From Bacteroidales bacterium OttesenSCG-928-B11 (lineage in GTDB: Bacteria; Bacteroidota; Bacteroidia; Bacteroidales; WCHB1-69): a DNA stretch of 64,000 bases. Position numbers and translations under genes: made by a program. Of this stretch, positions 6,767 through 48,772 are shown one piece after another. The DNA lies in contig JAJDJJ010000003.1 of assembly GCA_030267125.1 (NCBI GenBank), positions 1 through 64,000 of the forward strand. The letters run 5' to 3'. The notes below the pieces were generated by a model that saw only the letters and a list, made by a program, of their open reading frames with translations, was not told where the DNA came from and ran no database searches. Numbering within the stretch: position 1 is the stretch's first letter; every line of letters begins with the position of its first letter.

Positions 6767-7081
6767 GTGAGTATTAATCAAACTATAGGCGAAATTCTCA
6801 GAGAGAACAGAGAAAAGAAAGGGCTACTTCTTAGGCAAGTTGCAGCTCTTCTTGATATTGATACCGCTATACTGAGTAAAATAGAACGCGGAGAGAGAAA
6901 AGCGAATAAAGGACTAATAATCAAACTTGCTGAAATTTTAGGTTTAAATAAAGAAGAATTATTAATCCATTATCTGAGCGAGAAAATTGCTTATGAATTG
7001 GTAGATGAGGATGTTGCTTCGCAAACTTTGAAAGTTGCAGAAAAAAGAGTAGAATACCTAAAAGCTCATAAGTCACAATGA
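6767..7081 (+). CDS. XRE-family regulator, probable R-M controller protein (GTG start preferred over the track's TTG at 6725)
   Basis: HTH IGEILRENREKKGLLLRQVAALLDIDTAILSKIERGERKANKGLIIKLAEILG; ATGA overlap with downstream R-M gene. Confidence 0.82.
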   Translation: MSINQTIGEILRENREKKGLLLRQVAALLDIDTAILSKIERGERKANKGLIIKLAEILGLNKEELLIHYLSEKIAYELVDEDVASQTLKVAEKRVEYLKAHKSQ

Positions 7082-10053
7082 ACATAAAACAACTCATAGA
7101 AAAATATCAGTCGGACAGATATTATTATCTGACTAATAAATACAACGAAACACTACTTCGGAGCGATTTCCTTGACCCTTTTTTCGAGTTGTTAGGTTGG
7201 GATATAAAAAACAATGCAGGAAAACCGACCAACGAACGAGAAGTGATTTTGGAAGAAGCATTAAAGGCAAATGCTTCGGAACATTCTAAAAAACCGGATT
7301 ATACATTCCGTTTGTTTTCTGAAAGGAAATTCTTTTTAGAAGCGAAGAAACCATCTGTTTCTATCGAATCAAATAATGATACGGCAAAACAAGTCCGAAG
7401 ATATGGTTTTACCGCCAAATTGAAAATTTCTGTTTTGTCGAATTTTGAATATCTTATAATTTACGACACTTCGGTAAAAGTCGAAAAAGACGATACTTTT
7501 CAGAAAGCTATCATAAAAAAATATCATTATACCGAATATGAAAGCAAGTTTGAAGAAATCAAGAAATTGATAGGAAGAGATTCTGTTTATACAGGTTCTT
7601 TTGATTTAGAATGGAAAAATATTGAGGATAAAATTAATCACTATTCGGTTGATAATCTTTTTCTTACTCAAATAAATGAATGGAGAAAAGCGTTAGGAAC
7701 AGAAATTCATAAAAACGAAGCTGAAATTAACGAGCAACAACTGAACGATATCGTTCAGAGCTATTTGAATCGGATTTTATTTCTACGAGTGTGTGAAGAT
7801 AGAAATTTAGAAGATTATCAAACGCTGTTGAAATTTGCCAATGAAAATGATTTCAAGGCTTTGATTCAAAAATTTCAAGAAGCAGATAAACGATATAATT
7901 CAGGGCTATTCGACCAATTATTAAAAGAGAAAATCATTGAAAACGTAAGTTCTGTATTTTGGTCTATTATCAGGCAATTATATTATCCTGAAAGCCCTTA
8001 TTCATTCAGCGTGTTCTCGTCTGATATATTGGGACGGATTTACGAAATTTTCCTTTCAGAAAGATTAGCTATCAAGAATGGAACAGTTGAGTTGATAAAG
8101 AAACCTGAAAATATAGACAGGGACATTGTAGCTACGCCAACTTTCATTATCACGGATATTTTAAGAAGTACTGTTTTGCCTAAATGCAAGGACAAAACCG
8201 ATGAAGAAATATTGCAGTTAAAATTTGCTGATATTGCGTGCGGTTCAGGAGCTTTTTTGTTGGAACTTTATCAATTACTGAATGATATCCTTGTAGATTA
8301 TTATTTGAAAAACAATAAATCCAAACTTATACAAACCAATATTAACACTTACAAACTTTCATTTGAAACAAAACGAACGCTGTTATTGAATTGTGTTTTT
8401 GGTATTGATAAAGATTTCAATGCGGTAGAAGCCACAAAATTCGGTTTGTTATTGAAATTATTGGAAGGTGAAGATATTAATACAATTAGTAATACAAAAC
8501 CTGTTTTGCCCGACCTTTCCACAACTATCTTTTTCGGAAATAGCTTATTAAATCCTAAACAAGTAGCTAAGGAAAATCAAACAATTATCAATCCTTTTGA
8601 TTTTTCAAAGTTGCGTTTTGATGTGATTGTTGGCAATCCTCCTTATATGAAATCAGAGGATATGAAAAATATCACACCCCTTGAATTACCACTCTATAAA
8701 GAATATTACGAATCCGCTTACAAACAGTTTGACAAATACTTTTTGTTTTTAGAACAAGGTTTGAATCTCCTGACCGAAGACGGCGTTTTAGGATATATTG
8801 TGCCGAGTAAGTTTACAAAAGTTGGGGCAGGAAAAAATCTCCGAAAACTACTTACAGAAAATGAGTATATATATTCAATTGTATCTTTTGGGGCAAATCA
8901 AGTTTTTAACGATAAAACTACTTATACTTGTTTGCTCATATTAAGTAAGAAACAACATGCCACTTTCCAGTATGCCGAAGTCAATAATTTAGAAAAATGG
9001 AAAGTCCGAGAACCTGAATCAATGAAGTTTTCCGAGAAAAAAACTTCCGATTTAACCGATGATGTTTGGATATTGGTTTCTCCCGAATTAACCAACGTTT
9101 ACGATAAAATAGTTACTCAAAGCATAAAGTTAGTAAATTTAGTTGGGGATGAAAATATTTTCAATGGCATACAAACCAGTGCGAACAATATTTATATTTT
9201 CACTCCAACAAAGGAAGATGACAAGTATTATTATTGGGGCGACAACAATCAAATAGAGAAAAACTTTACGAAACCCTATTTTAAAACGTCTTCGGGCGAT
9301 GATAATTTGTACACTTATCGCACCTTTAAACCCAATGCAAGAGTCATTTATCCATACAAAAAGGTCGGCGATAAAGTCGAATTAATATCCTTAATTACAA
9401 TCGAAAAGAAATATCCACATGCTTATGCCTATCTTCAAAAGCATAAAAACAAATTGGATAATCCAAGCAGGGATACAAAACCCATTCCTCAAACAAAAAA
9501 TGAATGGTATAGATATGGAAGACACCAAAGTTTGGACAGTTGCGGATTGTCTTCAAAAATTATTGTTGGAGTTCTTTCTGTTGGCGATAAATATGCCGTT
9601 GATACTCACGGAACATTGATTTCTTCGGGCGGAACAGCAGGTTATTGCGTGGTTGCAGTTCCCGAAAATTCAGACTACTCCATTTATTACATTCAAGCTA
9701 TTCTAAACTCAAAATATTTAGAATGGTTTAGTTCCTTATATGGCGAAGTTTTCAGAGGCGGCTATATTGCGAGAGGGACAAAGGTTTTAACGAATCTTCC
9801 CATTAAGGAAATAGATTTTTCAAATTTACAAGAAAAAGAGCTACACGATAAAATTGTGTCAATACAAAAAGAATTAATTGCAATCCACGATGAAATAGAT
9901 GCAAATGCAGGAAATAAAAGAGTTCTAACACCACTGCAAGGACAATTTCAGCGAGAAAAAGCAGAATTAGATAATACATTAGCCCAATTGTACAATTTAG
10001 GCAACGAAGATTCATTAATCCCTTTAATCAAAGAATTGTATGAAGCTAATTAA
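7078..10053 (+). CDS. Type IIG (Eco57I-like) restriction enzyme/N6-adenine methyltransferase
   Basis: N-terminal nuclease motif KPDYTF..FFLEAKKP, MTase motif I FADIACGSGAFLLELY, motif IV NPPYMKSEDM, C-terminal specificity-like domain. Confidence 0.9.
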   Translation: MNIKQLIEKYQSDRYYYLTNKYNETLLRSDFLDPFFELLGWDIKNNAGKPTNEREVILEEALKANASEHSKKPDYTFRLFSERKFFLEAKKPSVSIESNNDTAKQVRRYGFTAKLKISVLSNFEYLIIYDTSVKVEKDDTFQKAIIKKYHYTEYESKFEEIKKLIGRDSVYTGSFDLEWKNIEDKINHYSVDNLFLTQINEWRKALGTEIHKNEAEINEQQLNDIVQSYLNRILFLRVCEDRNLEDYQTLLKFANENDFKALIQKFQEADKRYNSGLFDQLLKEKIIENVSSVFWSIIRQLYYPESPYSFSVFSSDILGRIYEIFLSERLAIKNGTVELIKKPENIDRDIVATPTFIITDILRSTVLPKCKDKTDEEILQLKFADIACGSGAFLLELYQLLNDILVDYYLKNNKSKLIQTNINTYKLSFETKRTLLLNCVFGIDKDFNAVEATKFGLLLKLLEGEDINTISNTKPVLPDLSTTIFFGNSLLNPKQVAKENQTIINPFDFSKLRFDVIVGNPPYMKSEDMKNITPLELPLYKEYYESAYKQFDKYFLFLEQGLNLLTEDGVLGYIVPSKFTKVGAGKNLRKLLTENEYIYSIVSFGANQVFNDKTTYTCLLILSKKQHATFQYAEVNNLEKWKVREPESMKFSEKKTSDLTDDVWILVSPELTNVYDKIVTQSIKLVNLVGDENIFNGIQTSANNIYIFTPTKEDDKYYYWGDNNQIEKNFTKPYFKTSSGDDNLYTYRTFKPNARVIYPYKKVGDKVELISLITIEKKYPHAYAYLQKHKNKLDNPSRDTKPIPQTKNEWYRYGRHQSLDSCGLSSKIIVGVLSVGDKYAVDTHGTLISSGGTAGYCVVAVPENSDYSIYYIQAILNSKYLEWFSSLYGEVFRGGYIARGTKVLTNLPIKEIDFSNLQEKELHDKIVSIQKELIAIHDEIDANAGNKRVLTPLQGQFQREKAELDNTLAQLYNLGNEDSLIPLIKELYEAN

Positions 10054-11647
10054 AAATGAATCTGCCGAAAAATTGCGAGGCGGTTTTTACACGCCTGAAC
10101 CTATTGCCTCATTCATTCTGAAATGGGGAATTAATGGGAGTGTTGACTATGACATTTTAGAACCAAGTTGCGGCGATGGCGTTTTTTTAGAACAATTGCG
10201 AGAAAGTAATCATAGATTTAATTCCGTTACCGCTATTGAATTTGATGAAATTGAAGCCGAAAAGGCAGAACGTGTAAACTTGAATAACAAAACAGTTATT
10301 AATACCGATTTTCATTTATATTGCAACGAAACAATTCAGCGGTTTGACTTAATTGTTGGAAATCCGCCTTATATCCGCTATCAATATTTCGACAAAGACC
10401 AGCAAATAGAAGCAGATAAGATATTTAATCGGGCAAAATTAAAATATTCAAAACTTACTAATGCGTGGGTTTCTTTTGTTGTTGGTTCAAGTCTACTTCT
10501 CAAAGAAAAAGGGAAAATAGGATTTGTAATTCCTGCCGAACTGCTTCAGGTTTCTTATGCCCAACAACTACGTGAATTTTTAGGGCATTTTTACAACAAA
10601 ATCAATATTATCTCTTTTGAAAAATTGGTTTTTCCTGATATTCAACAGGAAGTTGTTCTTTTGCTTTGCGAGAAAAACGATAGCAATTCGCATTTAATTG
10701 AACACTTAGAACTAAGAAACGCTTCGGATTTAGCAAAATTAGATGTAAATAAGTTAAAAAGCCCAACCAAAAAGATTGATTTCAAATCTAAAAAATGGAC
10801 GTATTATTTTTTGGAACAGGAAGAAATTGATTTTTTGGAGAAAATAGCTTCTGATAAAAACATATCGACTATTGGGAAATATGCTGACGTAGAAGTTGGA
10901 ATTACGACAGGAGCAAATAATTATTTTACGGTTCCATACTCAATAGTGCAATTTTATCAACTTGAAGAATTTGCTAAACCGATGGTTGGCAGAAGCGTTC
11001 AAGTTAACAGCATTGTTTTTACTCAAAAAGATTGGCAGAAAAATGTACAAAGTGAAGCGAAAGCTAATTTATTGGTATTTCCTCCAAAAGAGCAACTGAA
11101 TGGGCGCTTGGGAGTTAAAAGTTATTTGGAATATGGTGAATCTGTCGGGATAAACAAAGGTTACAAAACAGGTATTCGCGATGATTGGTTTGTGATTCCA
11201 TCTATAAAATTATCTGAAGCATTATTTATCCGTAGAAATAATTTGTTCCCTCGTTTGATTTTAAACGAAGCAGGAGCCTACACAACAGATACCATGCACA
11301 GAGTATTTATAAAAGAGCAAACAAATAAGTATGCTTTTATTGCCAGTTTTTATAATTCCCTCTCTTTAGCATTTTCCGAAATTGTAGGAAGAAGCTATGG
11401 CGGCGGCGTCCTCGAATTGATGCCAAGCGAAGCAGAAAAAATCCTTCTTCCCTATTGTGCAGAAAATGAAGAATTGCTTTCTGTCATTGACGGAATGATG
11501 CGTAAAAAGAAAAACATTGATGAAATATTGAAAATCACTAACGATGAGATTCTGAAACATGGATACGGATTTTCGGATAAAGAGATAAAATTTGCGGATA
11601 GTATTTGGAAAAAGCTGTCAGCAAGAAGGTTGAATAGGAATAAATAG
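10040..11647 (+). CDS. Companion N6-adenine DNA methyltransferase (Eco57I/TaqI family)
   Basis: Motif I ILEPSCGDGVFLEQL, motif IV NPPYIRYQYF; overlaps the upstream R-M gene. Confidence 0.88.
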   Translation: MKLIKNESAEKLRGGFYTPEPIASFILKWGINGSVDYDILEPSCGDGVFLEQLRESNHRFNSVTAIEFDEIEAEKAERVNLNNKTVINTDFHLYCNETIQRFDLIVGNPPYIRYQYFDKDQQIEADKIFNRAKLKYSKLTNAWVSFVVGSSLLLKEKGKIGFVIPAELLQVSYAQQLREFLGHFYNKINIISFEKLVFPDIQQEVVLLLCEKNDSNSHLIEHLELRNASDLAKLDVNKLKSPTKKIDFKSKKWTYYFLEQEEIDFLEKIASDKNISTIGKYADVEVGITTGANNYFTVPYSIVQFYQLEEFAKPMVGRSVQVNSIVFTQKDWQKNVQSEAKANLLVFPPKEQLNGRLGVKSYLEYGESVGINKGYKTGIRDDWFVIPSIKLSEALFIRRNNLFPRLILNEAGAYTTDTMHRVFIKEQTNKYAFIASFYNSLSLAFSEIVGRSYGGGVLELMPSEAEKILLPYCAENEELLSVIDGMMRKKKNIDEILKITNDEILKHGYGFSDKEIKFADSIWKKLSARRLNRNK

Positions 11648-11657
11648 AAATAATAAT

Positions 11658-11894
11658 ATGATATCACGCGATCCATCAGAGTACATACGAGGTATTCAAC
11701 AAATTTTAGTTTCGGACAAAAAGAAGATTGGTTTTCTTTTTGGAGCAGGGAGCTCTTTAGCTCGGAAAAATGAGAAATCACTTACCGTTCCTGCAATTGG
11801 TAAAATGACAGCAGAAATTGTTGAAGATATCAGTAAAATGGTTTATGAGTTGTATGGATTGATGGAGGAGGAAATAAGAATAATAACAAGTTAA
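11658..11894 (+). pseudogene. Chimeric fragment: SIR2-like N-terminus joined to a TaqI-type methylase C-terminal tail
   Basis: KKKIGFLFGAGSSLA...LTVPAIGKMT (SIR2 nucleotide-binding start), then KMVYELYGLMEEEIRII, typical of N6-MTase/type IIG C-termini; only 78 aa. Confidence 0.6.
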
Positions 11895-11908: not shown

Positions 11909-13939
11909 ATGCAACAATCAATCAATATCCTAAATTATATTAAAAGCATAAAGATAAATCCCGACGAATATTTATTGCCGTTGCTTGAAGTTGTTGTAAA
12001 TGCTATTCAAAGCATTGAAGACAAAACAGACAATGAAAAAGGACAAATATCAATAAAAGCAATTCGGTCTCCTCTACAAACAATAGAATTTGAAGATGAG
12101 CTTCCTTATAATCCTATAATTGGTTTCGAAGTTTATGATAATGGTGTTGGTTTTATTCAAAGCAGATTTAGTGCTTTTGGAGATGCTTTTACTGATTTTA
12201 ACGCAAAAAAAGGCTGTAAAGGTATTGGAAGATATACAGTTCTTGCTTGCTTTGGAAGTATGGAGGTAAATAGTACTTTTTTTGAAAATGGGAAATGGTA
12301 TAATCGAGCATTTCGATTTGATAACGCAAAGGAAAATAATGGCAATATAAAGGAGACTGACACACAAATATTGAAAACAAAAATTAGTTTGAATAATTAT
12401 AAAAAAGAGTTTATTAGTTATATTACCAAAAATAAAATAGAATTAATTGATATTGCAGAAAATATTATACAGCATTGCTTGTTGTATTTTATCGAAGATG
12501 CAATGCCTGCTATAAAATTATACGATGAGGGGACAAGTAAAAATCCGATTTTTTTAAATGATATTTATCGTAATGTGATAAAATTTGACAGAGAACCTGC
12601 ACAATTAAAAATAGATAATATTGATTCGATTTTCAATTTAAATTATCTCAAAAACTATTCTAATAAAGCACATTCTTTTCATTTATGTGCAAATAAAAGA
12701 GAAGTCGGAAAAAAAACAAATATGTCAAATTTTATCCCTTCATTTGTACAGAGTTTAATTGATGAACAACAAAAGAAATATTATTTATCTATTTATGTAA
12801 CAGGCGACTTTCTTGATGAAAAAGCGAATAATCAAAGAAATGAATTTTCTGTTCCTTTAAAAAAGGAACAGAAAACTGATTTTGACGAAATTTGTCTTAG
12901 TGAACTTTTTGATAATCTGTCGGATAATGTAAGACAAACATATTCTAACTTTATAGAAACAGCAGATAAAGAAAAAAATGAAAGAATACGAAATTACATA
13001 TTAAATGGAAAAACGCCTCGATTAGCATACAAACACTTGCTTAATGTGTCAAATATATTTGATGATATTTACGCAAACATATCAGATGAACGATTAGAAG
13101 CAGAATTAGCTAAAAAGGTTTTTCAATTAGAGCAAAAACGAACAAAGGCGTTTAATAAAGCATTTAATAAAAAGAAGTATGATAAAGAAGAATTTGGTAA
13201 GATTCTTACAGAAGTTTTGCGAGAAGAAGCGGCTTTTTCGCAAGACAAATTAGCCGATTTAATGGTGCGTCGAAAATCTGTAATCAAACTTTTTAAACAA
13301 TATTTGGAATGGCGTAGTGAAGAAAATTATATGTTGGAAGAAGATTTACATAATATAATTTTCACAATGGGAGCAGAGACCGATACAATGCCAATAGACT
13401 ATCATAATTTGTGGCTGTTAGATGAGCGACTTACATTTTATCGCCGTACCAACTCGGATAAGCAATTACGAACAAACAAAGATTTTGATGTGAATAGTCA
13501 AAAAGAACCTGACCTATTGATTTATGATTTCCCATGGGCTTATTCAGATAATCCGAACAATGTTAATTCATTAGTTCTTTTCGAGTTTAAACGACCTGGG
13601 AGAGATATGAATACTACTAAGGATAAAAAATTAGATTCCCAAGTAGAGGGCTATTTTGAGAAATTAATGGAAAGTAAAGCAACAAATGAAAAAGGGCGAA
13701 TTTTAAATGTTCAAGACAATACGGCTAAATTTGGTTATGTTATTTGTGAATTACACAAAGAGTTAGAAGAATATAACATAAAGTATAATTATTTTAAGAA
13801 AACACCTTATGGAACTTTATATAAAATAAACCCAGAATTAAATATGTATATTGAAGTTATGTCTTATCAAACAATGGTTGATTTTGCAGAAAAAAGACAT
13901 GATGCATTTTTCCAGGCATTAGGCATTCATAATTTATGA
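11909..13939 (+). CDS. GHKL ATPase with C-terminal PD-(D/E)XK-like nuclease domain
   Basis: N box EVVVNAIQSIED, G1 DNGVGF, G2 GCKGIGR; C-terminal EPDLLIYDF...SLVLFEFKRPGRD. Confidence 0.8.
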   Translation: MQQSINILNYIKSIKINPDEYLLPLLEVVVNAIQSIEDKTDNEKGQISIKAIRSPLQTIEFEDELPYNPIIGFEVYDNGVGFIQSRFSAFGDAFTDFNAKKGCKGIGRYTVLACFGSMEVNSTFFENGKWYNRAFRFDNAKENNGNIKETDTQILKTKISLNNYKKEFISYITKNKIELIDIAENIIQHCLLYFIEDAMPAIKLYDEGTSKNPIFLNDIYRNVIKFDREPAQLKIDNIDSIFNLNYLKNYSNKAHSFHLCANKREVGKKTNMSNFIPSFVQSLIDEQQKKYYLSIYVTGDFLDEKANNQRNEFSVPLKKEQKTDFDEICLSELFDNLSDNVRQTYSNFIETADKEKNERIRNYILNGKTPRLAYKHLLNVSNIFDDIYANISDERLEAELAKKVFQLEQKRTKAFNKAFNKKKYDKEEFGKILTEVLREEAAFSQDKLADLMVRRKSVIKLFKQYLEWRSEENYMLEEDLHNIIFTMGAETDTMPIDYHNLWLLDERLTFYRRTNSDKQLRTNKDFDVNSQKEPDLLIYDFPWAYSDNPNNVNSLVLFEFKRPGRDMNTTKDKKLDSQVEGYFEKLMESKATNEKGRILNVQDNTAKFGYVICELHKELEEYNIKYNYFKKTPYGTLYKINPELNMYIEVMSYQTMVDFAEKRHDAFFQALGIHNL

Positions 13940-14034: not shown

Positions 14035-15153
14035 ATGACAACCCATTTCGACGAATATATCCGCCAAGGCGAACCCTCGCAGAGGGAGAAAAGTCAAATT
14101 TGGCAAATTGCGATTGGCCTACAGCAGGTTGATGGCTTAACGCCGTCTGCTTATCTCATTGAAACGGCGAAACAGAATATTGAAGGCGATATCACTATTG
14201 AAGAGGTAAAATATCGTATTGACAGCTATTATAAGCAACAGACAAATAGAAAAACTATCGATGACAATCGTACCGAAGAGGCTGATAAGGTTTCGGCAAA
14301 CATTACCGAGATATTATCGGAAAAGACCTTTACGCTCAGCCTTACAGAACTTCTATCTATTCACAAACGTTTATTTGCCGGCGTTGAAAATATTCAGGTA
14401 AAAGTGGGCAAAATTCGTGATTACAATATCACTAAAAACGAATGGGTGCTGAACGGGAAAACCGTTTTTTATGCCTCTTATGATACGATAAATGCAACTC
14501 TCAATTACGATTTTTCGCAAGAAAAAAAGTTTGATTATAAGGGACTTTCAAAAAGAGAAATAATAGAACATATTGCAAATTTTATTTCGGGATTATGGCA
14601 AATTCATGCTTTTGGAGAGGGGAACACACGTACAATAGCTGTTTTCAGCATTAAATACCTGCGCACATTTGGCTTTGAAATCGAAAACGATATGTTTGCA
14701 AGGCATTCGTGGTATTTTCGAAACGCTCTTGTTCGTGCAAACTACAATGACTACGAACATAATATTTATGCCACTTCAGAATATTTAATGCTATTCTTTG
14801 GCAATCTGTTGCTTGGAGAAAATAACGAATTAAAGAACAGATATTTGCGGATTGACTTAAACGCTAAAATTACAACTGAACCGAAGGAACAAAATCTCAT
14901 AAATACAGGTGGTCAGAAAGAATTGTTGGGTGGTCAGAAAAAGTGGTCAGAAAAAGTGGTCAGATTACTTGAACTTATTGCTGAAAAACCAACCATTACC
15001 CGGAAAGAGCTTTCGGAAGCATTGCAAATCAACCCTTCTGCTGTGCAAAAACATATAGAAAAATTAAAAGAACAAAAAATTATTTCTCGTGTCGGATCGG
15101 ATAAAAAAGGAAGTTGGGTAATCACATCAAAAGAAAATAGAGACAATGAATAG
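14035..15153 (+). CDS. Fic-family protein with C-terminal winged-helix domain
   Basis: Fic motif IHAFGEGNTRT; C-terminal TRKELSEALQINPSAVQKHIEKLKEQKIISRVGSDKKGSWVI. Confidence 0.9.
   Translation: MTTHFDEYIRQGEPSQREKSQIWQIAIGLQQVDGLTPSAYLIETAKQNIEGDITIEEVKYRIDSYYKQQTNRKTIDDNRTEEADKVSANITEILSEKTFTLSLTELLSIHKRLFAGVENIQVKVGKIRDYNITKNEWVLNGKTVFYASYDTINATLNYDFSQEKKFDYKGLSKREIIEHIANFISGLWQIHAFGEGNTRTIAVFSIKYLRTFGFEIENDMFARHSWYFRNALVRANYNDYEHNIYATSEYLMLFFGNLLLGENNELKNRYLRIDLNAKITTEPKEQNLINTGGQKELLGGQKKWSEKVVRLLELIAEKPTITRKELSEALQINPSAVQKHIEKLKEQKIISRVGSDKKGSWVITSKENRDNE
14930..14966 (+). repeat. 13-bp direct repeat inside fic
   Basis: GTGGTCAGAAAAA at 14930-14942 and 14943-14955, then partial copy GTGGTCAGA at 14956; an outlying GTGGTCAGAAA at 14909. 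Confidence 0.8.
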
Positions 15154-28041: not shown

Positions 28042-28995
28042 ATGAAAAAAATAGAGAATCTATCAAGCATAATAGGGAAAATTCCAAAAGAGGGAGATAT
28101 AAAAATAAATCCATTAGACACTTCTTATGGGAAACATGAAAATACGCATTCTGACCTGATTGTCAAGTTCTTAAAAGCTGACATAGCATTGGCGCAATCA
28201 TTTTTTAAAATAGTGCTAAAGCAGGAATGGCCTAATGCAGAATTAAAAGTATCAAGAGAAAAAGGACGAATTGATATTTTAATTGAGTATGGGAAGAACG
28301 AATCTATTATCATAGAAAATAAGATTAATGCATCTGATCAACCAAAACAGTTGCAAAATTATCATGAATACACTTTAAATCATAAAGGTACAAAACCACG
28401 TATTTTCTACCTAACTCCTTATGGCACTAATCCAAGTGAAGATTCAAAAGGCGATTTGGAGGTGAAATGCATCAGCTATGAAAATGATATCCTTTCGTGG
28501 TTAGAAGAATTCAAGACAGAGGATCAGGCTCTAAAACATGCTATCCAATTTTATATAGAATTAATTCGTAAAACAATAAACAGAAATAAATATATGACAG
28601 ACATTTTAAAGAAAATTTTCACCGGAGAAAATAACCATGCGAAAGAAGCTATTAATTTGTACTTAGCCATGAATGGCAAGAATTTCTTAGATATTCCGGA
28701 AATAAAAGAGAAATTTGAAAACCTGATATATATCTGCGTTTCAAACAATCATGAACCAGAAGACTGGGCAGATACGAAAGATAACTGCAGAGAATTAAGT
28801 GATCTTGATAATAACATTGATTTTTATATTACAGGGTCATCGATATATGCAGAAAAAAACAATAGTGTGCGTTTGGGAGAAGAGATCCGATGCAATGATC
28901 TTGGCGATGAAAATCTCTGCTATTTATTAGCAGGTGAGACAGAAGATATCCAGAGATGGGTTGATCATATTTACAAAGAAGCAGAGGCAGAATAG
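28042..28995 (+). CDS. PD-(D/E)XK nuclease superfamily protein (PDDEXK_4-like)
   Basis: GRIDILIEYGKNESIIIENKINASDQPKQLQNYHEY catalytic-type motif. Confidence 0.82.
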   Translation: MKKIENLSSIIGKIPKEGDIKINPLDTSYGKHENTHSDLIVKFLKADIALAQSFFKIVLKQEWPNAELKVSREKGRIDILIEYGKNESIIIENKINASDQPKQLQNYHEYTLNHKGTKPRIFYLTPYGTNPSEDSKGDLEVKCISYENDILSWLEEFKTEDQALKHAIQFYIELIRKTINRNKYMTDILKKIFTGENNHAKEAINLYLAMNGKNFLDIPEIKEKFENLIYICVSNNHEPEDWADTKDNCRELSDLDNNIDFYITGSSIYAEKNNSVRLGEEIRCNDLGDENLCYLLAGETEDIQRWVDHIYKEAEAE

Positions 28996-40986: not shown

Positions 40987-42462
40987 ATGATGTTCGAACA
41001 AACTTTTAAAAATATTGACGATATACTTCACAAAGATGCGGGTTGCGGTAGTGAATTGGATTATGTGGAGCAAACCTCTTGGATTTTGTTTCTCAAATAC
41101 TTAGACGATTTGGAGAAAGACCGAGCCACAGCCGCCGAACTCACGGGAAAGACCTATACGCCTATTATCGACAAGGATTATCAATGGACTGTTTGGGCAA
41201 TGCCAAAAGGCAAGGATGGAAAACTCGACCACCACAAAGCGCTCACGGGAGATGATCTTACCGATTTTGTGAACAACAAACTCTTTCCGTATCTCAAAAA
41301 GTTTAAACAGAACGCCGAAAGCGCCGACACTATTGAATACAAAATCGGAGAGATTTTCAGCGAACTAAAAAATCGCATACAAAGTGGCTACAATTTGCGT
41401 GAAGTGATTAACCGCATTGACGAGTTGCGTTTCCGTACCCATGCTGAAAAGCACGAAATGAGTCATTTGTACGAGGACAAAATCAAAAACATGGGAAACG
41501 CGGGACGAAACGGCGGCGAATATTACACACCTCGTCCACTTATCACTACGATTGTAAAAGTGGTCGCCCCTGAAATCGGCGATAAAATTTATGATGGAGC
41601 AGTTGGTAGCGCGGGATTCCTTTGCGAAGCGTTTTCTTATCTAAAAAACCGCCCTTCGGCAGGCTCAAGTAGCGGTTTATCTACAAAAGAAACCGAGATA
41701 TTGCAAAAACGCTCTTTTTATGGCAAAGAGAAAAAATCCTTGGCATACATCATCGGCATTATGAATATGATTTTTCATGGCGTGGAAGCTCCAAACATTA
41801 TTCATACCAACACGCTAGCCGAAAACCTTGCTGATATACAAGAAAAAGACCGCTACGATGTGGTACTTGCCAATCCGCCTTTTGGTGGAAAGGAACGTGC
41901 CGAAGTGCAACAAAACTTCCCGATAAAAACAGGCGAAACCGCTTCGCTCTTTTTGCAACACTTCATGAAAATTCTGAAAGCAGGCGGAAAAGCAGGTGTA
42001 GTAATTAAAAACACCTTTTTGAGTAATACAGACAATGCCACCGTTGCCATACGCAAAACCTTGTTGGAAAGCTGTAATCTGCACACCGTATTGGATTTAC
42101 CCGGCGGAACGTTTACAGGCGCCGGAGTGAAAACGGTCGTTTTGTTTTTTGAAAAAGGAAAACCCACCCAAAATGTTTGGTTTTATCAATTAAACCTCGA
42201 CCGAAATTTGGGCAAAACAAATCCGCTGAACGAAAACGACCTTGCGGAATTTATTGAACTTCAAAAGACTTTTGCAGAAACTGAAAACTCTTGGACGGTT
42301 AATGTCAAAGATATTGACCAAAGCACGTTTGATTTGAGCGTAAAAAACCCCAATAAGAAAGAAGTTGTTCAACTTCGCTCACCACTCGAGATATTGGAAG
42401 AAATAAAAGCATTGGACGAAGAAAGTACGGAAATTCTATTGTCAATAAAAGAGTTGCTATGA
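40987..42462 (+). CDS. hsdM: Type I restriction-modification system DNA methyltransferase HsdM
   Basis: NAGRNGGEYYTPRPLI; motif IV NPPFGGKER. Confidence 0.95.
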   Translation: MMFEQTFKNIDDILHKDAGCGSELDYVEQTSWILFLKYLDDLEKDRATAAELTGKTYTPIIDKDYQWTVWAMPKGKDGKLDHHKALTGDDLTDFVNNKLFPYLKKFKQNAESADTIEYKIGEIFSELKNRIQSGYNLREVINRIDELRFRTHAEKHEMSHLYEDKIKNMGNAGRNGGEYYTPRPLITTIVKVVAPEIGDKIYDGAVGSAGFLCEAFSYLKNRPSAGSSSGLSTKETEILQKRSFYGKEKKSLAYIIGIMNMIFHGVEAPNIIHTNTLAENLADIQEKDRYDVVLANPPFGGKERAEVQQNFPIKTGETASLFLQHFMKILKAGGKAGVVIKNTFLSNTDNATVAIRKTLLESCNLHTVLDLPGGTFTGAGVKTVVLFFEKGKPTQNVWFYQLNLDRNLGKTNPLNENDLAEFIELQKTFAETENSWTVNVKDIDQSTFDLSVKNPNKKEVVQLRSPLEILEEIKALDEESTEILLSIKELL

Positions 42463-43334
42463 AAAACGAAATAATACTATACAGCCCTAATGAGCTTAGC
42501 AAACATATTGAAGTACGACTTGATGAAGATAAAGAAACGCTTTGGCTAACTCAAGAACAAATCGCCCAACTTTTCGAAAGAGATAGAAGCGTAATAACCA
42601 AACATTTGAAAAATATTTTCAAAGAAGAGGAGTTGGACGAAAAAGTGGTTAGTGCATTTTTTGCACTAACCACTCAACACGGAGCCATTAAAGGAAAAAC
42701 ACAGACAATGAAAGTGAAATTTTATAATCTTGACGCTATTTTGTCAGTCGGCTACCGTGTTAATTCCAAACAAGGCACACAGTTTAGAATATGGGCAAAC
42801 AAAATCCTGAAAGACTATTTATTAAAAGGTTATGCCATAAATAACCGAATGAACCGCATTGAGGACAATGTGTCGGCTCTTTCGGAAAAAGTAAACGAGA
42901 TTGACCTGCAAATAAACACACATCTAATTCCCACACAAGGCGTATTTTTCGATGGGCAAGTGTTTGACGCTTACGAATTGGCTTCTAAAATCATTCGCTC
43001 AGCCAAGCAAAGCATAATTTTGATAGATAATTACATAGACGAAACCACATTGATGCATTTATCAAAGAAGAAAAAAGGCGTAAGCGTGTTGTTGCTTACA
43101 AAAAACATAAGCAAACAACTGACCTTGGATATTGAAAAAGCCAGCGAACAATACGGTAATTTCACAGCAAAACCGTTTACCCACAGCCACGACCGTTTTC
43201 TAATTCTCGACCAAAAAGAAATCTATCATCTTGGAGCTTCGCTCAAAGATTTAGGCAGAAAATGGTTTGCTTTCTCTAAAATGGATAAACATTCGGTAAG
43301 CGGTATTATTAACTCAATTTCTGAAATGCTATGA
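42459..43334 (+). CDS. RhuM-family protein with C-terminal PLD-like region
   Basis: EVRLDEDKETLWLTQEQIAQLFERDRSVITKHLKNIF...VGYRVNSKQGTQFRIWANKILKDYLLKGY; C-terminal HDRFLILDQKEIYHLGASLKDLGRKWFAFSKM. Confidence 0.9.
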   Translation: MKNEIILYSPNELSKHIEVRLDEDKETLWLTQEQIAQLFERDRSVITKHLKNIFKEEELDEKVVSAFFALTTQHGAIKGKTQTMKVKFYNLDAILSVGYRVNSKQGTQFRIWANKILKDYLLKGYAINNRMNRIEDNVSALSEKVNEIDLQINTHLIPTQGVFFDGQVFDAYELASKIIRSAKQSIILIDNYIDETTLMHLSKKKKGVSVLLLTKNISKQLTLDIEKASEQYGNFTAKPFTHSHDRFLILDQKEIYHLGASLKDLGRKWFAFSKMDKHSVSGIINSISEML

Positions 43335-44566
43335 TGAAGTGGAAGAGAAAGAAATTAAATGAGTTTTGCGAGTTCAGTAATGGACTTTGGACAGGGAAGA
43401 AACCTCCTTTTCAAACTGTTGGAGTAATAAGAAATACAAATTTCACAAAAGATTGTCTTCTTGATGATAGTGATATCGTTTATTTAGAAGTTGAACAATC
43501 TCAATTTCAAAAAAGGAAATTGCAATACGGTGATATAATTCTTGAAAAGTCAGGTGGTGGACCAAAACAACCTGTTGGAAGAGTTGTGATTTTTGATAAG
43601 ACTGATGGTGATTTTTCATTTAGCAACTTTACTTCTGTAATTAGGATTAAGAATAAAGATGAAGTTGATTTCAACTTTCTACACAGATGTCTATTCTTGG
43701 AATACATTTCAGGTGCTACTGAAAAAATGCAAAGTCATTCGACAGGCATCCGAAATTTGAAATTTGATGAGTATAAAGAAATAGAAATCCCACTTCCCCC
43801 TCTCCCCGAACAACAACGCATTGTTTCCATATTAGATAAAGCCTTTTCGGCTATTGAGCGAAGTCGAAATAATGCCGAACAAAACCTTAAAAATGCAAAA
43901 GAATTGTTTGAGAGTTATTTGCAGGGGATATTTGAGAATGGGAATTGGGAAACGAAAAAGCTAAATGAAATAACTGAAGTAAAAGATGGCACACACGATA
44001 GTCCAAAATATATTAAAGAAGGAATTCCTTTTGTCACTCAAAAGAATATCAAACCTGATGGATTTTCATTTGGTGATACAAAATTCATCACAGAAACAGA
44101 CCACGAAAAGTTTTACAAGCGTTCAAATGTGACTTATGGTGATATTCTAATTTCAATGATTGGAGCAAATAGGGGAATGGCTGCAATAGTAGATGATAAA
44201 AGAGTTTTCAGTATCAAGAATGTTGGCTTGATCAAGTCAAGTGATAACATTAATATGAATTACCTACTTTATTATTTGAAATCTTCAGTAGCAATGAAAT
44301 ATGTTTTGTATATGTCAAATGGTGGAGCACAAGAATTTGTTGGATTGACAGCGTTGAGAAGTTTTCCAATTCCCCTTCCTCCACTTAAAGAACAACAAAC
44401 CATCGTCCACCAATTAGATGCCTTGCGAGCTGAAACACAAAAACTGGAAACGGTGTATCAAAAGAAAATAGCAGATTTGGAGGAACTGAAAAAAAGTATC
44501 TTGCAGAAGGCGTTCAATGGGGAGCTTGTCGAACCTACAGGGGAGTTAAAAATAGAAAAAAAATAA
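43331..44566 (+). CDS. hsdS: Type I restriction specificity subunit HsdS (two TRD halves)
   Basis: IPLPPLPEQQRIVSILDKAF and IPLPPLKEQQTIVHQLDAL; LKKSILQKAFNGEL. Confidence 0.95.
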   Translation: MMKWKRKKLNEFCEFSNGLWTGKKPPFQTVGVIRNTNFTKDCLLDDSDIVYLEVEQSQFQKRKLQYGDIILEKSGGGPKQPVGRVVIFDKTDGDFSFSNFTSVIRIKNKDEVDFNFLHRCLFLEYISGATEKMQSHSTGIRNLKFDEYKEIEIPLPPLPEQQRIVSILDKAFSAIERSRNNAEQNLKNAKELFESYLQGIFENGNWETKKLNEITEVKDGTHDSPKYIKEGIPFVTQKNIKPDGFSFGDTKFITETDHEKFYKRSNVTYGDILISMIGANRGMAAIVDDKRVFSIKNVGLIKSSDNINMNYLLYYLKSSVAMKYVLYMSNGGAQEFVGLTALRSFPIPLPPLKEQQTIVHQLDALRAETQKLETVYQKKIADLEELKKSILQKAFNGELVEPTGELKIEKK

Positions 44567-44570
44567 TTGT

Positions 44571-46406
44571 ATGAAAGTAAAATTAAGTCAAGCCGTTAAA
44601 ATGTTTTTTAGCAGCTCATCACTTGAGATGGTTTACTTAGAAGCTATTGCAAACGCATTAGATGCAAATGCAACGGAGATTGAAATCAAAATATCAATGA
44701 AGGCATTTAATCAATCTGAAACTCTTCAAATCGAAATTTCTGATAATGGCGAAGGTTTAACAGATGAGCGTTACAAGAAATTTTCAAAATTATTCGATGT
44801 TGAAGAAAGCACACACAAAGGCTTAGGGCGATTAGTTTATTTATGCTATTTCGAAGATGTAAAGGTTGTTAGCTATTTTGAAAAAACAAAAAAAAGAACT
44901 TTTAACTTCTCTGATGATTTTGAAGAAGAAAAATTCAAAATAGACAAGGTTGAAGAAAAGGAGTCCGGAACATGTTTTAAAATGACAAACTATACTCTTC
45001 AAAAAATTGCTAAGAATGATTACATCCATCCGAGAAAAATTAAGCAACGGATTTTGGAAGAATTTTATTCAAGACTTTTCCATCTAAAAAAACAAGGATG
45101 TTCGCTTAATATTAAAATAGAATCAATTATTGATGGTAAAAAAATGGTGTCAACGATTGATAGTACAGATATTCCTGAATTTACCGATGTGGAATTAAGC
45201 AGCTCTATTAACCTCATTGATAAATTTATTTTGTATTATTCAATAAAAGAAGTTGACCCACAAGATTCATCTTTGATTGCTGCAATTTCTGTTGATAATA
45301 GGACTGTTAAGGTGGATTTAATTTCAAATGAAAATATGTTGCCTGGCTATGAAATGGTATTTCTGCTCTATTCAGATTTTTTCGTTGGTAAAATTGATGC
45401 AGCAAGGCAAAATTTGACTATTTCTCCACAGGAGTTGAAAGATGTTCAAACCATATTTAGGAAAGAAGTCATTTCTATAATTGAAGCTAAAATACCAAGA
45501 ATTAAAAAGAGGAACAGTGATGTTAAGGCAGGGCTTATTTCAAAATTCCCTCATTTAAGCAGTTATTTTGACACGAATAATATTGGATATATTCCACGAA
45601 ACGAGATTTTGAAAAAAGCACAAAATGAATTTTTCCAAGAGCAAAAAGAAATTTTAGATGCAACATCCTTAAATGATGAGCAATTTGAAAAATCAGTAGA
45701 ATTATCATCAAGAGCATTGACGGAATATATTTTGTTCCGACAATTAACTGTTGAAAAATTAAAAAAATCAACAGACTCTGAGAGTGAAGCTGAGATACAT
45801 AAATTATTTGCTTTAATGCGTAAAGATGGTAGATTTGAAAAGAAAAATTGCATTGATGACATTTATAAAAATAGCGCTTGGCTACTTGATGACAAATACA
45901 TGACTTATGAAACCATACTCAGTGACAGAGAAATGGGTGAACTAATAAAAGAAATAACGGATGATGAAGGTGTTGAAGATGATAATAGACCAGATATGGC
46001 TTTGATATTTTCTAATAATCCTGAAAACAAAAAACCTTTCGATGTTGTAATTGTAGAGTTTAAAAAAAGAGGGATTTCATTAGAAGAAAACATGAAAGTT
46101 GTAACTCAACTTGAAAAACGTGCGCGAAAATTAATGAAACATTACAATAATCAAATTCAAAGAATTTGGTTTTATGGAATTATAGAGTTTAATGAAGAAG
46201 TAGAGATGCAATTAGCAGGAGAATACACTGAATTATATTCTTCTGGGAAAATGTATTATAGAGAAACGAATATAGCGATATCACTTAATCCGAAAATAAC
46301 ATTGCCGATCGGAGTTTTTATATGGGATTTAGATGCTGTAATAAGTGATGCTGATGCTCGCAATTCGACATTCTTGAATTTAGTGAAAAGTAAGTTTATT
46401 CAGTAA
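44571..46406 (+). CDS. GHKL ATPase with C-terminal PD-(D/E)XK-like nuclease domain, in the hsd operon
   Basis: N box EAIANALDANA, G1 DNGEGL, G2 HKGLGR; C-terminal RPDMALIFSNN...FDVVIVEFKKRG. Confidence 0.82.
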   Translation: MKVKLSQAVKMFFSSSSLEMVYLEAIANALDANATEIEIKISMKAFNQSETLQIEISDNGEGLTDERYKKFSKLFDVEESTHKGLGRLVYLCYFEDVKVVSYFEKTKKRTFNFSDDFEEEKFKIDKVEEKESGTCFKMTNYTLQKIAKNDYIHPRKIKQRILEEFYSRLFHLKKQGCSLNIKIESIIDGKKMVSTIDSTDIPEFTDVELSSSINLIDKFILYYSIKEVDPQDSSLIAAISVDNRTVKVDLISNENMLPGYEMVFLLYSDFFVGKIDAARQNLTISPQELKDVQTIFRKEVISIIEAKIPRIKKRNSDVKAGLISKFPHLSSYFDTNNIGYIPRNEILKKAQNEFFQEQKEILDATSLNDEQFEKSVELSSRALTEYILFRQLTVEKLKKSTDSESEAEIHKLFALMRKDGRFEKKNCIDDIYKNSAWLLDDKYMTYETILSDREMGELIKEITDDEGVEDDNRPDMALIFSNNPENKKPFDVVIVEFKKRGISLEENMKVVTQLEKRARKLMKHYNNQIQRIWFYGIIEFNEEVEMQLAGEYTELYSSGKMYYRETNIAISLNPKITLPIGVFIWDLDAVISDADARNSTFLNLVKSKFIQ

Positions 46407-46408
46407 AT

Positions 46409-48772
46409 ATGAACGAAGCAGAAACCAGAGCGGAATTAATCGACCCCAAGCTAAAGGCTTGCGGTTGGGGTGTTGTTGAAGGCTCTAAAGTTCTTCGAGA
46501 ACATGCTATTACTGCGGGAAAAATTCAAACAGGCGGTGGTAGGGGAAAAAGAGAAATCGCCGATTATGTGTTGGTTTACAAAGGAATTAAATTGGCTGTG
46601 ATTGAAGCCAAAAGTGATGAATTGGAAGTTGGCGAAGGTGTAATGCAAGCCAAAAAGTATGCGGAAAAATTAAAATTAGAAACCACATACAGCGCCAACG
46701 GAAAAGAAATTTACCAAATCTGCCTAAAAACAGGCGAAGAAAGTTTGGTAAGCGATTTTCTAACTCCCGAACAACTTTGGGATAAAACTTTTCCTGAGCT
46801 TATCGAAGGAAATGCTTCGGACATTGAGCGTAGTCGAAATACCGAACTATGGCGAGAAAAATTTGCATCAGTACCATTTGAAGACAAAAGCGGAACATGG
46901 CAACTTCGGTATTATCAGGAAATTGCGGTGCAAAAAACAGTCGAAGCAATTGCACAAAACAAAGAACGTATTTTGCTTACCCTTGCCACAGGAACGGGAA
47001 AAACGGCAATCGCTTTTCAAATCGCTTGGAAACTGTTTCAAACCCGCTGGAATTTAAAACGAGACGGCAGCCGCCGTCCAAGAGTTTTATTTTTAGCAGA
47101 CCGTAATATTTTGGCAGACCAAGCCTACAACTCATTTTCGGCATTTCCCGAAGATGCTTTGGTACGGATTAAGCCAAACGAAATAAAGAAAAACGGAAAA
47201 GTTCCGACTAACGGAAGTATTTTCTTTACTATTTTTCAGACCTTTATGTCGGGCATCGACAGAGAAGGAAATCCTTCGCCTTACTTTGGCGAATATCCTG
47301 CCAATTATTTTGATTTTATCATCATCGACGAATGCCACCGAGGTGGAGCCAATGACGAAAGCAATTGGCGGGGAATTTTGGATTACTTTTCTCCCGCAGT
47401 GCAATTGGGTTTGACCGCTACACCAAAACGAAAAGATAATGTGGATACGTATCGCTATTTTGGCGAACCGGTTTACATTTATTCGCTCAAAGAAGGTATC
47501 AACGATGGTTTTTTAACGCCATTCAAAGTAAAACGCATCAAAACAACTTTGGACGATTACCGCTACACTTCGGACGATACCGTTGTAGAAGGCGAAATCG
47601 AAGAAGGCAAACTCTATGAAGAGAAAGACTTTAACCGCACCATTGAAATCGTAGAACGAGAAACCAAGCGGGTGAACATATACTTGGAAGAAGCCAATCA
47701 AAAAGAAAAGGCTATCGTTTTCTGTGCCAATCAAGGTCATGCGGCATTGATTCGAGATTTAATCAATCAAAATGCAAAAAGTAAAGACCCTTTTTACTGT
47801 GTTCGCGTAACCGCCAACGATGGCGAAGAAGGCGAACGATTGTTGAGAGAATTTCAGGATAACGAAAAAATAATTCCTACCATTCTCACAACTTCACAAA
47901 AGCTTTCTACGGGTGTTGATGCACGGAATATTCGCAATATTGTGTTGCTTCGTCCAGTCAATTCGATGATTGAGTTTAAACAAATAGTCGGGCGTGGAAC
48001 CCGTTTGTTTGATGGGAAAGAGTTTTTTACCATTTACGATTTTGTTGATGCGTACAAACATTTTTCCGATCCCGAATGGGACGGAGAACCTTTGGAAAGT
48101 GAGCCGACAGATGTTGTAACCGAACCGAGAGTACCATACGAGCCAAATGAGCCAAAAGAACCGACTAAAATAGAACGCAAACAGAAAATCAAAATCAAAT
48201 TGCGAAATGGAAAAGAAAGAGAAATACAATCAATGATTTCAACTTCTTTTTGGAGTGCAGAAGGCAAGCCTATTTCAGCAGAAGAATTTTTAAATAATCT
48301 GTTTGGCGAGTTACCTAAACTTTTCAAAGATGAAGAAGAATTGCGGAAACTGTGGAGTAATCCCATTACCCGAAAGGTTTTGTTAGAGAATTTGGAATCG
48401 GCAGGTTTCCCGAAAGACGATTTACTGACTTTGCAAAAGTTGGTAGATATGGAAAAGAGCGACTTATATGATGTGTTGGAATACGTTTTCAATGGCGACT
48501 ACATCGCAATGACAAGAGAAGCCAGAGCCAAAGCAGCCGAAGCAACAATCTTTGCCTTACTCAACGACCAACAAAAAGAGTTTATCTCTTTCGTTTTGAG
48601 CAAATACATTGAAACAGGTGTGGACGAGCTCGACCAAGACAAGTTGCCGATTTTGCTCACAAACAAATATCAATCCTTGGAAGACGCAAAAGAAATTTTA
48701 GGCGATGTGGCAAACATCAGCAAGTTGTTTGTAGAATTTCAAGAGCACCTTTATTTAAAAAGAATAGCATGA
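46409..48772 (+). CDS. hsdR: Type I restriction endonuclease subunit HsdR
   Basis: IADYVLVYKGIKLAVIEAKSD nuclease motif; LATGTGKTAIAFQIAW; IIDECHRGG; QIVGRGTRLFDGKEFFTIYDFVD. Confidence 0.95.
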   Translation: MNEAETRAELIDPKLKACGWGVVEGSKVLREHAITAGKIQTGGGRGKREIADYVLVYKGIKLAVIEAKSDELEVGEGVMQAKKYAEKLKLETTYSANGKEIYQICLKTGEESLVSDFLTPEQLWDKTFPELIEGNASDIERSRNTELWREKFASVPFEDKSGTWQLRYYQEIAVQKTVEAIAQNKERILLTLATGTGKTAIAFQIAWKLFQTRWNLKRDGSRRPRVLFLADRNILADQAYNSFSAFPEDALVRIKPNEIKKNGKVPTNGSIFFTIFQTFMSGIDREGNPSPYFGEYPANYFDFIIIDECHRGGANDESNWRGILDYFSPAVQLGLTATPKRKDNVDTYRYFGEPVYIYSLKEGINDGFLTPFKVKRIKTTLDDYRYTSDDTVVEGEIEEGKLYEEKDFNRTIEIVERETKRVNIYLEEANQKEKAIVFCANQGHAALIRDLINQNAKSKDPFYCVRVTANDGEEGERLLREFQDNEKIIPTILTTSQKLSTGVDARNIRNIVLLRPVNSMIEFKQIVGRGTRLFDGKEFFTIYDFVDAYKHFSDPEWDGEPLESEPTDVVTEPRVPYEPNEPKEPTKIERKQKIKIKLRNGKEREIQSMISTSFWSAEGKPISAEEFLNNLFGELPKLFKDEEELRKLWSNPITRKVLLENLESAGFPKDDLLTLQKLVDMEKSDLYDVLEYVFNGDYIAMTREARAKAAEATIFALLNDQQKEFISFVLSKYIETGVDELDQDKLPILLTNKYQSLEDAKEILGDVANISKLFVEFQEHLYLKRIA

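Follow-up and report, generated by a model that had tools for sequence, protein, structure and literature searches.

Within a window of 64,000 nucleotides (the whole stretch of DNA analysed here, positions 1 to 64,000 of contig JAJDJJ010000003.1 from Bacteroidales bacterium OttesenSCG-928-B11), we studied a gene, here called P0001, that encodes a GHKL ATPase fused to a PD-(D/E)XK nuclease (Table 1). Its reading frame is intact and uninterrupted, and its GC content is 28.9% vs. 39.3% for the window. An initial annotation, made from the sequence alone, had placed the gene behind an Eco57I-like restriction-modification (R-M) pair and ahead of a Fic gene, and PADLOC and Pfam bear out both neighbours. 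The Fic protein ends in a winged helix, and its N-terminus is weakly VbhA-antitoxin-like. With P0001 alone as the query we obtained no match in Pfam-A, NCBIfam, PADLOC or PDB sequences, and a search of PHROGs gave insignificant matches only; reading by hand thus caught what automatic annotation misses.

Between the methyltransferase gene and P0001 lies a short remnant ORF that had been described as a 'SIR2 scar', a description that holds in part: the SIR2-like GFLFGAGSS can be recognized by eye, but the ORF has no Pfam match. The last ~28 residues (ISKMVYELYGLMEEEIRIIT) weakly resemble, by phmmer, the C-termini of longer proteins elsewhere, one of which is of the adenine-methyltransferase type, and this resemblance to the ends of other proteins makes the ORF look less like a pure SIR2 remnant than like the junction left by a deletion. 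The deletion probably removed a SIR2 gene together with further R-M sequence. A plasmid search with the remnant ORF returned nothing informative. The same window also encodes a PDDEXK_4 nuclease-like protein (28042–28995).

P0001 had further been called the second fusion of the same architecture in the window, and this proved correct. The other copy, P0002, presumably the one counted first, is a full-length but divergent relative that the P0001-family HMM detects in its N- and C-terminal halves alike (E=6.5e-27; hhalign 99.8%); the two proteins share 25–30% identity over short stretches only, and the catalytic residues of P0002 are in register with those of P0001. P0002 sits in a type I R-M operon, 4 bp past hsdS and 2 bp ahead of hsdR. 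This operon (40987–48772) contains two inserted genes, P0002 and a RhuM-like gene (42459–43334), the C-terminal half of which looks PLD-like by eye.

Table 1. Features of the P0001 locus, of the encoded protein and of the second fusion gene, in window coordinates. Fractions refer to the alignment of 89 full-length homologues.
Feature	Position	Strand	Basis or remark
Type IIG restriction-modification enzyme	7078..10053	+	PADLOC REase_MTase_IIG, full length; Pfam Eco57I
M.Eco57I-type adenine methyltransferase	10040..11647	+	PADLOC MTase_II, E=4e-202; M_Eco57I_C
Remnant ORF, 78 codons, SIR2-like start	11658..11894	+	Sequence by eye; weak phmmer matches
P0001, GHKL ATPase–PD-(D/E)XK nuclease fusion gene	11909..13939	+	Single ORF, 676 codons (676 aa)
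GHKL (Bergerat) ATPase domain, ~residues 1–174	11909..12430	+	AF2 model; Foldseek
N box EVVVNAIQSIED	11987..12022	+	E27, N31 kept in 89/89
G1 box DNGVGF	12137..12154	+	D77, G79, G81 in 89/89
G2 / ATP-lid region KKGCKGIGR	12206..12232	+	G102, G105, G107, R108 in 89/89
S5-like transducer domain, ~residues 196–325	12494..12883	+	Weak MLH1 profile match; Foldseek alignments
Helical linker / clamp region, ~residues 326–467	12884..13309	+	Long helices in AF2 model
PD-(D/E)XK nuclease domain, C-terminal, ~residues 470–676	13316..13936	+	E-D-ExK; hhalign; Foldseek weak
E477, helix Glu of E-D-ExK	13337..13339	+	89/89
D535 of E-D-ExK	13511..13513	+	88/89, the remaining one E
E559-F-K561 (ExK)	13583..13591	+	E559, K561 each 89/89
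Fic protein, PADLOC candidate family PDC-S72	14035..15153	+	E=2.3e-134, full length
P0002, divergent same-architecture relative between hsdS and hsdR	44571..46406	+	Family HMM; HATPase_c_3 E=1e-8

Domain anatomy and known relatives

All motifs that the initial annotation had named in P0001 were located as it described them, namely EVVVNAIQSIED (residues 27–38), DNGVGF (77–82), KGCKGIGR (101–108), EPDLLIYDF (beginning at residue 533) and LVLFEFKRPGRD (spanning about 559–561). These motifs are not a matter of chance: in an alignment of full-length homologues that span numerous phyla and two domains of life, the ATPase and nuclease residues of Table 1 are identical throughout, apart from a single substitution at D535. 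Since the scan for homologues started from the patterns KG[IV]GR and NLWL[LI]DE, these two stretches (including G105–R108) are partly invariant by selection, which is not so of the other sites. In the ATPase site, E27 presumably serves as the catalytic base and N31 as the Mg ligand.

The AlphaFold2 model, based on a 71-sequence alignment, has a mean pLDDT of 87 and places long helices in the linker (residues 330–365, 393–420 and 426–467). For the N-terminal half, Foldseek returned the ATPase modules of Hsp90/TRAP1/GRP94, GyrB and SMCHD1 (best E 1.4e-11, probability 1.00), and these alignments cover the GHKL domain plus the next domain, the transducer; over the whole query the TM-scores reach only about 0.3, low values of the kind that a multi-domain protein would lead one to expect. 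A profile search added a weak MLH1 match (4p7a, E=0.046) over the ATPase and transducer regions. P0001 thus has the ATPase and transducer fold in common with MORC, MutL, Hsp90 and GyrB, but carries a Shedu-like nuclease in place of a TOPRIM domain or the MutL C-terminus. MORC proper was considered and rejected: its S5 motif GhXhhpXXRhl is absent from both P0001 and P0002 and matches in 1/92 family sequences, which fits paraMORC and not MORC.

The architecture was defined in 2008 as paraMORC3 (Iyer, Abhiman, Aravind), consisting of GHKL and S5 domains and an RE fold with E-D-ExK, with a sporadic occurrence in Proteobacteria and Bacteroidetes, some members standing alone and some accompanied by R-M genes (PMC2292703). 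Set beside this description of architecture and motifs, P0001 matches paraMORC3: it has an N-terminal GHKL domain with all motifs (89/89 sites) and a corresponding fold match, a predicted S5-type transducer after it, to which the MLH1 match points weakly, and a C-terminal E-D-ExK, in what weak evidence suggests is an RE fold. The homologues of P0001, however, extend beyond the published range to archaea, Firmicutes, Actinobacteria, plasmids and phage, and they adjoin more defence types than R-M.

A protein of this kind has been tested against phages. VcSduA, a GHKL plus PD-(D/E)xK protein of the V. cholerae VSP-II WASA, was assigned to DUF4263 and linked to paraMORC3 / Shedu type I-D by its authors; it protects alone against phages, and the E27A and K557A substitutions abolish defence (PMC12137116, 2025). 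P0001 has in common with it the single gene, the GHKL N-terminus and the PD-(D/E)xK C-terminus, and E27/K557 of VcSduA are in register with E27/K561 of P0001 (a Xenorhabdus homologue, L107, has exactly E27/K557). Unlike VcSduA, P0001 has no Pfam SduA_C match and is connected by a profile-profile link only. Judged by architecture and residue register, the two would belong to the same family.

Nuclease affinity and distribution

To place the nuclease, we compared a P0001-family profile (residues 440–676) with one for Shedu SduA_C, made from genomes of the class; hhalign gave a probability of 95% (E 3e-8), whereas ten runs with column-shuffled control profiles did not exceed 3.3%. HSDR_N_2 came second at 88.8%, and Mrr and PDDEXK_4 gave no match; with Shedu the best, a generic PD-(D/E)XK identity was rejected. 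Pfam SduA_C / DUF4263 found no match in P0001 and matched weakly in 2/71 of its homologues (best 0.0016). When the C-terminal domain was modelled alone (pLDDT 84), the leading Foldseek matches were mostly restriction-endonuclease folds (McrC, FokI, AF1548, Can2, EcoO109I; E 0.06 or worse), none of them significant, and a Shedu entry was not found among the top 50 matches. On these sequence comparisons, the nuclease appears closest to Shedu among the profiles tested, and we refer to it as a 'Shedu-like PD-(D/E)XK domain'; the support for filing it formally under Shedu is partial, and because HSDR_N_2 also reaches 88.8%, it may be a separate PD-(D/E)XK branch. The nuclease of classical Shedu SduA (PF14082; PDB 8ti8, 8ps4), in which DNA-end sensing relieves autoinhibition (review PMC12904381), is distantly like that of P0001 (the 95% given above), but the N-terminus is a different one, and V. 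fluvialis carries a true SduA gene and a P0001 homologue side by side as distinct genes.

Full-length relatives occur in 7/395 sampled genomes of the class, its own genome included, and the gene is missing from the four congeners sampled and from almost the whole family. Among GTDB representatives we found 241 related stretches and kept 80 (27–67% identical to P0001), with homologues in Bacteroidota, Firmicutes, Actinobacteria, Proteobacteria, Nitrospira, Riflebacteria and archaea. Homologues are further carried by 55 plasmid records and by a single phage record, vB_RanS_PJN03 (L114, 2485–4509; 34% identity), where the gene lies beside an integrase; the public record mislabels it 'N-acetylmuramoyl-L-alanine amidase'. 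Together, the patchy occurrence, the low GC and the carriage by plasmids and phage are typical of a gene that moves laterally.

Several close homologues sit among ordinary genes, a point against the defence reading. One of these, in Flavobacterium rivuli (L036, 9983–12042), lies amid core genes and is split into frames of 341 and 279 aa, apparently a decayed copy. In the window's own family, a gene for what by eye looks like a caspase-type protease follows a P0001-family gene after 13 bp (L150, 1000–4480). When the Xenorhabdus homologue was compared with E. coli genomes by blastn, nothing informative came up.

Neighbourhoods and the link with restriction-modification

We surveyed 80 homologue loci using mechanical ORFs as gene calls. 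R-M methylase and specificity genes accounted for 18/389 genes within 3 kb vs. 2/276 beyond 6.5 kb (Fisher p=0.004), a conservative control since the distal genes may share the islands. Immediate neighbours matched 425 PADLOC models vs. 12 for the distal genes of the same loci, the first figure being too high because a single HsdS hits a large number of the models. Annotated plasmid contexts include type I R-M, CBASS, HEPN/DUF4365/AAA, TIR and PIN genes, Abi and Fic, and in one case a plasmid homologue stands beside SIR2, an ATPase (SIR2/HerA-like) and a XamI R-M system. The neighbourhoods of the family are defence islands generally, with CBASS, SIR2 plus an ATPase, Abi or phage cargo.

Across these loci we found no constant partner gene. 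A SIR2 partner was rejected, as none stands beside the close homologues and SIR2 lies near one plasmid homologue only; a conserved Shedu partner was likewise rejected, being confined to one locus, in V. fluvialis. In that plasmid (L109, 8610–12004) a true SduA gene overlaps the start of the P0001 homologue by 4 bp, and the pair directly follows a type I R-M operon that carries an inserted AAA ATPase. A fixed system with the type IIG/methyltransferase pair does not hold as the general case, since E. coli, Lysinibacillus and Lactobacillus plasmids carry the pair but no GHKL gene with it. Nor does the family have the constant presence in one type of R-M operon that would mark an R-M subunit.

The initial annotation had proposed a standalone defence effector of restriction islands, and had named a lack of enrichment near defence genes and a loss of catalytic residues in most homologues as outcomes that would speak against it; we found enrichment near defence genes and intact catalytic sites. 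What stands of the proposal is a single gene with conserved sites, no obligate partner and enriched R-M and defence neighbours; a reading of it as new, or as confined to restriction islands, is not borne out.

These neighbourhoods bear on the alternative that P0001 is a PrrC-like accessory or guard of R-M, which would partner with an R-M system or be restrained by it, and would strike upon its inhibition or add a nuclease to it. hsdS lies immediately upstream in 4/67 loci vs. 1/607 genes beyond 3 kb (p=0.0004), with gaps of 5, 9, 13 and 26 bp. GHKL-nucleases directly behind hsdS comprise P0002, set tightly between hsdS and hsdR, together with L029, L030, L063, L078 and Salinivibrio (order R-AAA-M-S-GHKL), and the V. 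fluvialis plasmid has a Shedu gene in between (R-AAA-M-S-Shedu-GHKL). Behind a type IIG–methyltransferase pair stand P0001 itself and a Lachnospiraceae homologue (L105, 3030–11946), which repeats the order HTH–type IIG–methyltransferase–GHKL nuclease of the window with R-M proteins 37% and 42% identical to the window's pair. The authors of 2008 likewise placed most MORC and paraMORC proteins in R-M systems (PMC2292703). On the other hand, R-M lies within 3 kb in just 16/80 loci and is of varying type (I, IIG, III, XamI), many homologues stand by themselves on plasmids or in phages or adjoin defence systems of an unrelated kind, the type IIG/methyltransferase pair is mostly found without a GHKL gene, and VcSduA protects without a partner (PMC12137116). 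We consider such a guard role unlikely. The narrower proposal, that the GHKL-nucleases trailing hsdS or a type IIG–methyltransferase pair are functionally coupled to those particular R-M systems as an ATP-gated back-up nuclease for when restriction is blocked, we regard as quite unlikely. The Lachnospiraceae locus also has an ORC/CDC6-like ATPase after the GHKL nuclease.

Proposed function and meaning

We think it likely that P0001 acts against phages as a one-protein nuclease of the paraMORC3 / GHKL-Shedu kind, working through an ATP-gated clamp, its anti-phage role being suggested by analogy with VcSduA. What the comparisons establish directly is the order of the domains, the invariant catalytic residues, the structural class to which the ATPase module belongs, the setting among defence genes and the patchy occurrence. 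In the mechanism that we infer, which extends to the dimer, the closure of the clamp, its gating by ATP, the DNA substrate and the trigger, two copies would dimerise via the GHKL and S5-like domains, as do MutL, GyrB and Hsp90, and ATP binding would shut the clamp round DNA, or round a phage-typical DNA structure. ATP binding or hydrolysis (E27) would then position or release the PD-(D/E)XK nuclease (E477, D535, E559, K561), which would cut phage DNA. The protein would work without a fixed partner and move as cargo of defence islands, plasmids and prophages.

It is conceivable, though in our judgement very unlikely, that P0001 acts as a toxin-like abortive-infection effector, in which a phage trigger frees the nuclease to destroy host DNA or RNA and not phage DNA. 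The family does adjoin abortive-type systems (CBASS, Abi, Fic), and PD-(D/E)XK effectors can target host nucleic acid (WonB, PMC12137116); however, cultures with VcSduA survived at every multiplicity tested, with growth curves that fit direct restriction and not suicide (PMC12137116), and no antitoxin partner is conserved among the homologue loci. A non-defence role as a MutL-like factor of DNA repair or housekeeping is highly improbable, for although the series of GHKL, S5 and nuclease resembles the endonuclease-bearing MutL and the MLH1 profile matches weakly, the gene is patchy within genus and family and low in GC, and the family is carried by plasmids and phage and enriched beside defence genes.

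P0001, then, is probably a defence effector, and it is a further intact, divergent member of an architecture that has been known since 2008 (paraMORC3) and of which a similar protein was tested against phages in 2025. As Pfam, NCBIfam and PADLOC 2023 miss it and PHROGs yields insignificant matches, pipelines label such a protein 'ATP-binding protein' or worse; a profile made from the 71-sequence alignment would expose a widespread family of GHKL-nucleases and tie it to the phage-tested VcSduA. The recurring site behind hsdS raises a testable question, whether these proteins act solo or as a back-up to restriction, and this repeated tight linkage is the aspect of the family that most deserves experiment.
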